Positions 16,261 through 52,694 of a DNA stretch of 64,000 bases are shown here, one piece after another. Position 1 is the first letter of the stretch, and each line of letters opens with the position of its first letter. The stretch is from positions 124,001 to 188,000 of the forward strand of contig NZ_ATUP01000001.1 in NCBI RefSeq assembly GCF_000420265.1, in the 5' to 3' direction. The notes beneath the pieces were generated by a model. That model was given only the letters and a program-made list of their open reading frames with translations, was not told the origin of the DNA and ran no database searches. This DNA comes from Oceanicaulis alexandrii DSM 11625. GTDB lineage: Bacteria > Pseudomonadota > Alphaproteobacteria > Caulobacterales > Maricaulaceae. The position numbers and the translations under genes were made by a program.

Positions 16261-17106
16261 TTAGGATTTGGCGTCTTCAGCCGGCGCTTCCGCAGCAGCG
16301 GGCGCGGCTTCGGCGGCGGGTTCTTCGGTCGGAGCGGCTTCGCTCTCGTCCACGCCCAGAGCCATTTCGCTCGGCGCTTCAGATTCGCCCAGATCCATGC
16401 CCAGAGCGGCCTGGCTGTCGGCGATGCCGTCCAGCACGGCGTCCGCGATCAGGTCGCAATACAGCGACAGGGCGCGAGAGGCGTCGTCATTGCCCGGAAT
16501 CGGGAAATCAATCGGATCCGGGTCGCAATTGGTGTCCAGGATGGCCACGACCGGGATGTTCAGGCGCTTGGCTTCCTGAATGGCGATGGACTCCTTGTTG
16601 GTGTCGATCACGAACATCAGGTCCGGCGTGCCGCCCATTTCCTTGATGCCGCCCAGGGAACGCTCGAGCTTTTCACGCTCGCGGGTCAGCATCAGGATTT
16701 CTTTCTTGGTCAGACCGGTCGGGCCGCCTTCGGCGTCCAGCAGGGTCTCCAGCTCGCGCAGACGCGCGATGGACTTGGAGATGGTCTGCCAGTTGGTGAG
16801 CGTGCCGCCCAGCCAACGGTGATTCATGTAGTATTGCGCACAGCGCGACGCGGCCAGAGAGATCGGCTCGGCGGCCTGGCGCTTGGTGCCCACGAACAGA
16901 ACGCGACCGCCTTTGGCGGCGACTTCACGCACCTTCACCAGCGCCTGGTGCAGCAGCGGAACGGTCTGCGACAGGTCGATGATGTGGATGTTGGCGCGTT
17001 CGCCGAAGATGTAATCTTTCATCTTCGGGTTCCAGCGGTGGGTCTGGTGACCGAAGTGACAGCCGGCTTCGAGCAGCTGGCGCATGGAGAAATCAGGAAG
17101 AGCCAT
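16261..17106 (-). CDS. rpsB: 30S ribosomal protein S2
   Basis: Structural protein of the small ribosomal subunit. The 281-residue product begins [29 protein letters not shown] and contains [10 protein letters not shown] and [10 protein letters not shown]. The C-terminal tail, from about residue 235, is an Ala/Glu/Pro-rich extension ([21 protein letters not shown]) beyond the E. coli length of 241; such tails are seen in alphaproteobacterial S2. The ATG at 17104-17106 is the family start. Confidence 0.96.
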
Positions 17107-17199
17107 AATTTTAGGTCCTTTTTCCGGTTGGCCTCCGCGGAGCGGAGCCGCTCGCCTCATCTGACATCCAGCTTGGGCGTCAGACATGACTTGCGGCAC

Positions 17200-17234
17200 C
17201 GGAGCGACTTTTCACCTGAAAAGCCGAAGCTCCG
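17200..17234 (-). promoter_or_regulatory. Structured 5' leader of rpsB
   Basis: Between the promoter and rpsB the transcript can fold into a hairpin. Its outer 6-bp arm is 17200-17205 with 17229-17234, and its inner 6-bp arm is 17208-17213 with 17218-17223. A small internal loop separates them and a 4-base loop closes the top. It would begin about a dozen bases into the mRNA. S2 leaders are autoregulated by the protein in other bacteria; that this one is S2-bound is inference. Confidence 0.5.
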
Positions 17235-17252
17235 CGTGCGGGATCGGGCGCG

Positions 17253-49224: not shown

Positions 49225-49301
<77 letters not shown>

Positions 49302-49372: not shown

Positions 49373-49449
<77 letters not shown>

Positions 49450-51258: not shown

Positions 51259-51334
51259 TGGTGGGTGGTGACGGGGTCGAACCGCCGACCTACTGGGTGT
51301 AAACCAGTTGCTCTACCAGCTGAGCTAACCACCC
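51259..51334 (-). tRNA. tRNA-Val (anticodon TAC)
   Basis: 76 bases with encoded CCA. Acceptor GGGTGGT pairs with ACCACCC. The D arm is GCTCAGCTGGTAGAGC, and the anticodon stem ACTGG/CCAGT closes loop TTTACAC with anticodon TAC. The T arm contains GGTTCGACC. Its 5' end is only 25 bases past the pheA stop. Confidence 0.96.
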
Positions 51335-51356: not shown

Positions 51357-51386
51357 CTTTTAGCCTTCAAGCGAGGTCGGCTTCAA
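51357..51386 (-). promoter_or_regulatory. Candidate tRNA-Val promoter inside the end of pheA
   Basis: Minus-strand TTGAAG (51381-51386) and TAAAAG (51357-51362) are 18 bases apart. The -10 element includes the pheA TAA. The predicted start is about 16 bases ahead of the tRNA, a plausible spacing. Cotranscription with pheA is the alternative. Confidence 0.4.
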
Positions 51387-52526
51387 GCGGTCTGAACCGT
51401 AAGAGCCGAAGCGCCGGACAGATTTCGCATAGCCGGACAGATGCTCCAGCGCCTTGGCCACGGTTTTGTCCTCTTCATGGCCTTCCAGATCGAGAAAGAA
51501 CATCTGCTCCCAGGGCGATCCGGGCACCGGCCGGCTCTCGAGCTTGGTCATGTTCACCCCGTGCTGGCGGAACCCGTCCAGAGCATCCACCAGTGAGCCG
51601 GACGCGTCCGAGGTGATGAAGACCAGCGAGGTCTTGCACGGCAAGAGCGGGGATGCCGGGGCCGGGTCAACCGCCAGAGCGACAAAGCGGGTCTCATTGC
51701 CTTCAAAGTCGGAGATCATCGGCTCGATCAGGTTCAGACCGAACAGGCGCGCGGCGTCCGGCCCTGCCACAGCGGCCACTTCAGGCCCTTCATCAAGCGC
51801 ACGTTCCAGCGCCCGCGTGGTGGAAGTCACCGGAACTTTCTTCAGATCGGTGCGCGAATTGAGCCATCGCTGCGCCTGACGCAGCGCCTGGGGGTGGCCG
51901 TAAACTGTGCGCACGGGCCCCAGATCACTCGCCTTGCCCATCAGCGCATGCTGGATCTTCATATGGTGCTCGCCGGCGATCTTCAGGTTTGAATCACGCA
52001 GCAGGTCATAGACTTCGTTGACGCCGCCCGTGGCCGTGTTCTCGATCGGCAGGAAGCCGTAATCGGCTTCGCCATTTTCTAGCGCTTTGAAGATCGACGC
52101 GTAATCACGCTTGATGACCGGCGCGACGCCCGAATACCGGCCCGAGAAGTGCGCGTTCGCCGCGAACTGCGAATAGGAACCCGGCCCGCCCAGATAGGCG
52201 ACCCGCGCCTCGGTCAGCATGGCGTCACCGACGCGTGCATCCAGACCGGCGCGCTGTCGGCGCAGGGAGTCGTCGATGATCGCCTGGAACAGGGTTTCAA
52301 CGAAGCTGTCAGACAAGCCGTACTCGCGCCCCTTGGCCACGGCGCGCTCGATAACGGCGCGCTCGCGATCCGTATCGCGCACTGGACTGTGCTCGCCCGC
52401 TTTCAACGCCCCAAGCGCTTCACCCAGACGCCGGCGTTCGGCCAGGATTTTCAAGATCTCTGAATCGGACGCATCGATCGCCTGTCGCAGAATTAGACGC
52501 TCATCGCGCGGCTCGGTCTGGCTCAT
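51360..52526 (-). CDS. pheA: Bifunctional chorismate mutase/prephenate dehydratase (P-protein)
   Basis: Makes prephenate and then phenylpyruvate in phenylalanine synthesis. The 388-residue product has an AroQ-type mutase domain (about residues 8-95, ILRQAIDASDSEILKILAERRRLGEALG). A dehydratase domain (about 108-285) carries YLGGPGSYSQFAA, FLPIENTATGGVNEVYDLL and the catalytic ETRFVAL. A C-terminal ACT domain has the Phe-binding ESRPVPGSPWEQMFFLDLEGH. The ATG at 52526 has GGGAG six bases upstream. It is preceded by a complete attenuator, so Phe controls both enzyme and transcription. Confidence 0.96.
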   Translation of the reverse strand: MSQTEPRDERLILRQAIDASDSEILKILAERRRLGEALGALKAGEHSPVRDTDRERAVIERAVAKGREYGLSDSFVETLFQAIIDDSLRRQRAGLDARVGDAMLTEARVAYLGGPGSYSQFAANAHFSGRYSGVAPVIKRDYASIFKALENGEADYGFLPIENTATGGVNEVYDLLRDSNLKIAGEHHMKIQHALMGKASDLGPVRTVYGHPQALRQAQRWLNSRTDLKKVPVTSTTRALERALDEGPEVAAVAGPDAARLFGLNLIEPMISDFEGNETRFVALAVDPAPASPLLPCKTSLVFITSDASGSLVDALDGFRQHGVNMTKLESRPVPGSPWEQMFFLDLEGHEEDKTVAKALEHLSGYAKSVRRFGSYGSDRLKPTSLEG

Positions 52527-52540
52527 GGCCGACTCCCATT

Positions 52541-52564
52541 AAAAAACCCCGCCGAAGGGCGGGG
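52541..52564 (-). terminator. Attenuator terminator in the pheA leader
   Basis: On the minus strand CCCCGCC (52558-52564) pairs with GGCGGGG (52547-52553) around loop CTTC, followed by six T at 52541-52546. It ends 14 bases before the pheA start codon. Its left arm overlaps the 3' arm of a competing antiterminator: 52594-52607 can pair with 52560-52572, 12 pairs with one mismatch and one bulge. This is the standard layout of ribosome-mediated attenuation. Confidence 0.88.
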
Positions 52565-52594
52565 CTGGTGACTTCATCTTGCAAGCAAGCAGCG

Positions 52595-52657
52595 TCAACC
52601 GGCCCCGAGAGGACGATAGAAATAGCCGCCGAAGACAAAGAGGTTCGTGTTCATCAT
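52595..52657 (-). CDS. Phenylalanine leader peptide of pheA
   Basis: A 20-codon frame, MMNTNLFVFGGYFYRPLGAG, ending in TGA. It has three Phe codons and two Tyr codons clustered mid-peptide, as in attenuation leader peptides for aromatic amino acids. Its last codons and stop lie in the 5' arm of the antiterminator, so ribosome position decides the fold. No ribosome site precedes it, and the promoter predicts transcription starting at or next to the ATG. That suggests a leaderless start, as known for the alphaproteobacterial trp leader peptide. An in-frame ATG at 52669 is an alternative start. Confidence 0.8.
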   Translation of the reverse strand: MMNTNLFVFGGYFYRPLGAG

Positions 52658-52664
52658 GCATCGC

Positions 52665-52694
52665 AGCATGAAACCGTATGCCGCGTACGGTCAA
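52665..52694 (-). promoter_or_regulatory. Candidate promoter of the pheA leader
   Basis: Minus-strand TTGACC (52689-52694), an 18-base spacer and CATGCT (52665-52670). The -10 match is weak, but the -35 is good. The implied start falls at about 52657-52658, on the leader ATG. It is back to back with TTGACA (52713-52718) reading toward the cyclophilin gene. Confidence 0.45.

Follow-up and report, generated by a model that had tools for sequence, protein, structure and literature searches.

The pheA gene of the marine bacterium Oceanicaulis alexandrii DSM 11625 is probably controlled by a ribosome-mediated attenuator of the pheL type, with a leader that would be translated from a leaderless start and would read both phenylalanine and tyrosine codons because PheA probably supplies both amino acids. 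It is a known kind of attenuator in a variant that appears to have been re-tuned to tyrosine; related cases may be among the proteobacterial attenuators that Vitreschak and colleagues surveyed in 2004. The locus lies in a 64,000-nucleotide stretch of contig NZ_ATUP01000001.1, here called the window, and its features are collected in Table 1. The pheA product is a bifunctional chorismate mutase / prephenate dehydratase (P-protein) with an ACT domain, as identified by domain search, and the gene upstream of the attenuator has the opposite orientation. The first-pass annotation had read this region as a phenylalanine attenuator, and its coordinates and counts, including a leader with three Phe and two Tyr codons, are correct base for base; the terminator that it placed ahead of pheA is present as a stem-loop followed by six T residues, with 14 bases between the end of the T-run and the pheA ATG, and its 12-pair antiterminator was reproduced by duplex computation, with one mismatch and one bulge.

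Table 1. Features of the pheL-pheA locus, in window coordinates
Feature	Position	Strand	Description
-35 element	52689..52694	minus	TTGACC; TTGAC position shared across Maricaulaceae leaders
-10 element	52665..52670	minus	CATGCT, weak; Maricaulaceae pattern CANNNT
Putative transcription start	52657..52658	minus	Leader ATG or 1 base earlier, judged from the -10 position
Leader ORF pheL	52595..52657	minus	20 codons, peptide MMNTNLFVFGGYFYRPLGAG then stop
pheL control codons	52595..52657	minus	F7, F9, Y12, F13, Y14, read from the ORF
Possible protector hairpin	52604..52613	minus	Leader UCC with antiterminator-arm GGG; weak
Antiterminator 5' arm	52594..52607	minus	Last leader codons and stop codon
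Antiterminator 3' arm	52560..52572	minus	Shares bases with the terminator 5' arm
Intrinsic terminator	52541..52566	minus	GCCCCGCC-CTTC-GGCGGGG, T6; stem-loop 52566-52547, T-run 52546-52541
Shine-Dalgarno-like GGGAG of pheA	52533..52537	minus	Identified from sequence
pheA	51360..52526	minus	CM_2, PDT and ACT domains; ATG at 52526

In the mechanism that we propose, transcription would begin at the leader ATG or one base before it, so that the leader would be translated without a ribosome-binding site. A ribosome slowed at the Phe or Tyr codons would expose the last leader codons, which would then pair with the terminator 5' arm as an antiterminator and let transcription continue into pheA; if the ribosome instead ran on to the stop codon, it would cover the antiterminator 5' arm, letting the terminator form and stop transcription short of pheA by those 14 bases. 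The switch would respond to a shortage of tyrosine as well, since tyrosine is most probably made from phenylalanine by a hydroxylase, with no TyrA and with PheA supplying both amino acids. Termination would, as follows from the anatomy, release a short RNA that starts with the leader ORF.

The arrangement recurs in a single family. Bifunctional PheA, called at E <= 1e-80, was found in 36 of the 299 genomes of the order sample, all of them Maricaulaceae (genera among the relatives include Oceanicaulis, Maricaulis, Glycocaulis, Marinicauda, Woodsholea and Hyphobacterium), and examination of every upstream region placed a leader ahead of the gene in 33 of the 36; no leader precedes pheA in G005, G020 and G036, and the leaders of G026 and G203, missed by the filter, were entered by hand. 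With further loci, the comparison set comprises 39 distinct leader sequences, and the peptide alignment, which takes in loci fetched later, 40 distinct leader peptides. The first-pass annotation had staked its reading on conservation in close relatives, and the leader, its Phe and Tyr codons and the hairpins do recur across Maricaulaceae. Hyphobacterium-type loci (L020, L021, L046 and L047) carry a bifunctional pheA shortly after lon, without a leader.

Codons for two amino acids are frequent in the leader peptides, which carry on average 3.05 Phe and 2.05 Tyr codons in 21 codons across the 39 distinct leaders. At least one Tyr codon is present in 38 of the 39 and at least two in 36, and at least two Phe codons are present in 35. 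What is new is that, within the pheL leader, Tyr is conserved better than any other codon: it occupies one aligned column in 35 of the 40 distinct peptides, followed by an adjoining Phe and a late Gly at 32 of 40 each. In each of four leaders (L006, L008, L009 and L010) a single Phe codon is accompanied by two Tyr codons. By a crude measure, the G-run of the antiterminator arm lies 9 nt or more downstream of the start of every one of the 80 Tyr codons and of 114 of the 119 Phe codons, and the distances of the Tyr codons are compatible with stalling.

A metabolic reason for reading tyrosine is suggested by the gene content of the genome. PDH_N gave no match in the window's genome, which is rated complete, and was positive in all 14 control genomes; a closer TyrA query returned from it just a 19.6-bit match, to an ORF that Pfam assigns to glycerol-3-phosphate dehydrogenase. 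The genome does encode a phenylalanine hydroxylase, which passes the NCBIfam cut-off for phenylalanine 4-monooxygenase (268.1 vs 264.75). Since TyrA is not detectable and the hydroxylase is present, PheA probably feeds both phenylalanine and tyrosine, and tyrosine in this organism is most probably made from phenylalanine by the hydroxylase.

We searched 37 leader-bearing genomes for TyrA and the hydroxylase, the closer TyrA query covering 20 of them. The hydroxylase is present in all 36 genomes whose leaders carry Tyr codons; 24 of these 36 are without TyrA, by no match or a match below the cut-off, except for G006, which scores 26.6 bits against a cut-off of 26.5 and is not confirmed by the closer query. 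The other 12, all from the Maricaulis genus group, have a TyrA-like gene (61-80 bits) and the hydroxylase together and keep their Tyr codons, so the absence of TyrA alone is no predictor. The single genome with a Tyr-less leader, G034, has TyrA at 88.2 bits, and the hydroxylase was not found in it; its congener G017 has Tyr codons and the hydroxylase and no TyrA. The two Hyphobacterium genomes G020 and G036, in which the leader is absent, have the hydroxylase and no TyrA above the cut-off. Tyr codons thus likely go with the hydroxylase rather than with the absence of TyrA, a link that we hold as likely and not more firmly because the contrast rests on one reversal, that in G034. The earlier suggestion that the leader senses both aromatic residues gains support from the strongly conserved Tyr codon together with this apparent metabolic reason.

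Other candidates in this part of the analysis were set aside. Three weak TyrA-like matches proved to be glycerol-3-phosphate dehydrogenase, by Pfam in G000 and G014 and by reading of the frame in G026; others of this kind occur in G004 and G007. The idea that the Tyr codons are due to PheA being the sole chorismate mutase was rejected, because a second CM_2 gene is present in the window's genome and just one in G034, whose leader is Tyr-less. The hydroxylase itself lies beyond the window (G000:C1:1313156-1313884; locus L253 462-1628); of seven proteins scanned around it, five have Pfam families, none of them for tyrosine breakdown as read, and two have no family. An insert splits the Biopterin_H match into two halves in 15 of 15 genomes searched of the window's genus, and is 26 residues long in the window's genome.

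Genetic data have led to the proposal that Dyella, Echinicola and Legionella make tyrosine from phenylalanine by the hydroxylase (PMC7311316); as described in the available part of that paper, Dyella and Legionella resemble the window's genome in lacking TyrA and having the hydroxylase. The same part ties the hydroxylase route to no attenuation, and the main text mentions neither Maricaulis nor Oceanicaulis. No link between the hydroxylase route and a pheA leader appears in the available parts of PMC7311316, PMC1173090, PMC1262725 and PMC2965389, and a search of the open-licence PMC literature gave no match on alphaproteobacterial tyrosine synthesis by the hydroxylase together with prephenate dehydrogenase.

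The most serious competitor, which we nevertheless regard as unlikely, is a classic attenuator that senses phenylalanine only, in which Tyr codons are tolerated next to the Phe codons but exert no control. Gammaproteobacterial leaders are nearly pure Phe: of 60 distinct leaders, 40 are free of Tyr codons, 17 carry a single one and 3 carry two, in a list that demanded at least four Phe codons and is therefore biased toward this explanation; the retention of at least two Phe codons in 35 of the 39 Maricaulaceae leaders agrees with it as well. It does not, however, lead one to expect that Tyr should be the best conserved internal residue, that four leaders should keep two Tyr codons beside one Phe, or that among the 37 genomes searched Tyr should be lost just in the one where the hydroxylase was not found. 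We therefore prefer a leader that reads both amino acids.

The claim that the leader may be leaderless draws support from the geometry of its promoter. From TTGAC to the leader ATG the distance is 35 nt in 16 leaders, 36 nt in 11 and 37 nt in 12, together all 39; in the -10 pattern CANNNT, the C and A are present in 39 of 39 and the final T in 38, and the element ends 6-7 nt before the leader ATG in every case. The filter by which most leaders were gathered required TTGAC about 28-48 nt upstream, so the presence of TTGAC is partly selected and the narrow spacing of 35-37 nt is not; in an unfiltered listing (L001-L023) the same spacing was found in 20 of 20 leaders. Pairing with the anti-Shine-Dalgarno sequence averages -1.4 kcal/mol for the leaders vs -6.4 kcal/mol for the pheA starts, of which 30 of 37 reach -4 kcal/mol or better (two of the 39 loci yielded no pheA start by the rule used). 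We infer from the fixed spacing and the weak mean match that the 5' end falls at the ATG or one base before it; the -10 of the window itself (CATGCT) is poor. As far as the sequence tells, there is no sign that transcription begins within or beyond the terminator, which would count against the attenuator.

The leader might instead lie on a longer mRNA from an upstream start and be translated through a ribosome site or by coupling. The weak -10 and the lack of a sigma-70 consensus site would fit such a transcript, as would the 7 of 39 leaders whose anti-Shine-Dalgarno pairing reaches -4 kcal/mol or better and the E. coli pheL, which has a ribosome site and a TTGAC 55 nt before its ATG. A longer transcript would not, however, explain why the 35-37 nt spacing is fixed in all 39 leaders with a near-invariant CA...T in the -10, and the upstream neighbour in the window is oppositely oriented; we consider it improbable, more so than a leader that senses phenylalanine only, and retain the leaderless start.

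Taken singly, the window says little about folding or termination. Its leader fold is at chance (z = -0.32), a sigma-70 consensus scan returned no site, the locus's own -10 included, and 3 terminator-like sites in 1.4 kb, two of them this hairpin, compare with 1.2 +- 1.1 expected; these single-sequence statistics are at chance, so the case rests on the relatives. There, every one of the 39 distinct Maricaulaceae leaders folds into a strong hairpin followed by a T-rich tail, which is short in L016 and L130, and the six loci fetched later likewise have the hairpin. A stricter ungapped terminator rule failed to find the hairpin of L037 and put four others, whose stems are bulged, in the wrong place.

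For the antiterminator we compared the region around the stop codon with the region through the terminator 5' arm in 16 hand-grouped clade representatives. Own-partner duplexes average -28.6 kcal/mol vs -23.9 +- 0.88 kcal/mol for permuted partners, and none of 20,000 cross-species permutations, which leave clade base composition in play, equals the own pairing; for the distal part of the antiterminator by itself, which omits the C-run, 12 of 20,000 are as good. Against foreign partners the mean z of the window's clade is -1.46 and those of three Maricaulis groups are -0.08, +0.24 and +1.00; in the latter two groups the own arms pair no better than foreign ones, and the Maricaulis arms are nearly invariant. 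The Maricaulis subset (13 leaders) folds by itself into the antiterminator, through mostly invariant pairs. Considered individually, only 7 of the 39 distal helices pair better than shuffled sequences at the 5% level, and that of the window does not (0.27).

Column-wise tests gave a more mixed picture. In ten alignable sequences 84.0% of cells are paired vs 79.7 +- 1.2 in shuffles, none of 500 shuffles being as high, and two pairs are changed on both sides, as many as in 21 of 500 shuffles; slid controls of this alignment partly exceed its covariation score, which makes the test weak, and per-column covariation is modest. The antiterminator was not recovered by RNAalifold from an alignment of 23 leaders or from a MAFFT alignment of 26, a failure that we attribute to arms that shift register between genera, and a covariance model built from the ten sequences matched just those ten among 44 loci. 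Overall, an antiterminator mutually exclusive with the terminator is predicted to form between the last part of the leader and the 5' arm of the terminator, and the reading of the region as a phenylalanine attenuator is borne out by conservation and by the coevolving antiterminator arms.

Two further helices were considered. A small hairpin of the leader CC run with the G-run might act as a protector, on weak support: RNAalifold includes three of its pairs in the consensus for 23 leaders, of which two vary one-sidedly and the third is changed on both sides in a single sequence. A second helix, joining the Phe codons to the spacer ahead of the terminator, had seemed compensated between L001 and L002 and was rejected: 19,936 of 20,000 permutations were as good, and among the 16 clade representatives its own partners pair worse than permuted ones. 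A GCGCGCG-like stretch follows the leader stop codon in many relatives (L017, L023, L054 and L130) and is absent from the window.

That the terminator is constitutive and the small ORF fortuitous, with no translational regulation, would agree with single-sequence statistics at chance and is very improbable, given that across Maricaulaceae the control codons and terminator are conserved and the antiterminator arms coevolve.

The nearest PheA proteins outside Maricaulaceae are gammaproteobacterial, such as those of Pseudoalteromonas, Shewanella and E. coli. In a quick tree of 88 proteins, which carries a long-branch warning, gammaproteobacteria and Maricaulaceae separate from 15 other P-proteins with an SH-aLRT of 100, and Maricaulaceae form a single group with an SH-aLRT of 79. 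The gammaproteobacterial pheL/pheA resembles the locus in the window in having a P-protein gene, a Phe-coded leader and a terminator directly before pheA; it differs in that the window's system has many Tyr codons, is G+C-rich and scores 25.2 bits with the Rfam Phe_leader model RF01859, below the gathering cut-off of 55. L002 and L023 score 28.2 and 27.5 bits on the leader strand, and L011, L015, L018, L019 and L055 give no match up to E 10. Because the wrong strand of gammaproteobacterial loci reaches 24.7-32.5 bits, and the Trp_leader model scores L002 at 28.8 bits, level with its Phe_leader score, the 25-28 bits of Maricaulaceae carry no weight alone. Shewanella loci L087 and L102 score 85.1 and 77.1 bits, and three Pseudoalteromonas loci 53.4, 40.5 and 39.2 bits; Shewanella pheA is listed among leader-peptide-attenuated genes in the available part of PMC2659441.

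Promoter spacing divides these gammaproteobacterial leaders. Among chosen rows with a leader, whose group labels are partly by reading, the -35-to-ATG distance is 33-38 nt, much as in Maricaulaceae (35-37 nt), in 8 of the 9 Shewanella-like rows, 10 of the 11 Alteromonas-like rows and 6 of the 12 from Pseudoalteromonas. It is 55-62 nt in 7 of the 9 E. coli-like rows and in all 4 Vibrio-like ones, as well as in the Alteromonas-like L164 and Pseudoalteromonas L073; the remaining gammaproteobacterial rows fit neither class. Other P-protein rows were left out of these counts, their small ORFs resembling the end of the upstream gene. In part of Pseudoalteromonas (L066, L073, L076, L098, L099 and L107, from P. 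luteoviolacea, rubra and others) pheL is without TTGAC at 35 nt, so the promoter or the start differs there. The simplest story would be a leaderless pheL-pheA cassette from a common ancestor of Maricaulaceae and these gammaproteobacteria, with a ribosome site gained later in the line of E. coli.

Tentatively, and at slightly less than an even chance, we suggest that in Maricaulaceae the pheA attenuator was re-tuned to a Phe/Tyr sensor, with Tyr the chief control codon because tyrosine is made only or also from phenylalanine by the hydroxylase, and with Tyr codons lost on a return to TyrA; in this proposal leaderless pheL, which Maricaulaceae would have in common with Shewanella and Alteromonas-type bacteria, would be the older version, and the E. 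coli leader with its ribosome site a derived one. If so, the leader senses the end product of a pathway that runs past the product of its own gene, and leader codons could document how a pathway is wired, here tracking tyrosine synthesis, in a natural experiment on how control codons follow metabolism. A leaderless attenuator would also require the polymerase to be coupled to ribosomes that initiate with no ribosome site, and the textbook E. coli pheL may not be ancestral.

The first-pass annotation had drawn an analogy with the alphaproteobacterial trp leader, which is fair where the leaderless start is concerned; the gammaproteobacterial pheL is the closest relative. In S. meliloti trpL/trpE (rnTrpL, peTrpL) the leader peptide and RNA act in trans, and, in the available part of the source, trpL resembles the pheL proposed here in being a leaderless ORF at the transcript 5' end (PMC7298713). 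Attenuation there releases a small RNA carrying the ORF (PMC7298713), as the window's pheL may also do; trpL differs from the window's pheL in amino acid and in gene. A scan of the 760 bases ahead of trpE in the window's genome found no start of a small ORF carrying two Trp codons. The open-licence PMC literature gave no match on alphaproteobacterial pheA leader-peptide attenuation, Tyr/Phe-codon attenuators or leaderless pheL.

Several RNA genes were noted nearby. A tRNA-Val (tac) lies downstream of pheA at 51259-51334 (-), and tRNA genes lie downstream of pheA also in L002, L011, L015 and L019. Two tRNA-Asp (gtc) genes at 49225-49301 and 49373-49449 (-) are near each other and have the same score, and a match to the rpsB sRNA at 17106-17240 (-) scores 40.3 bits against an Rfam cut-off of 40.
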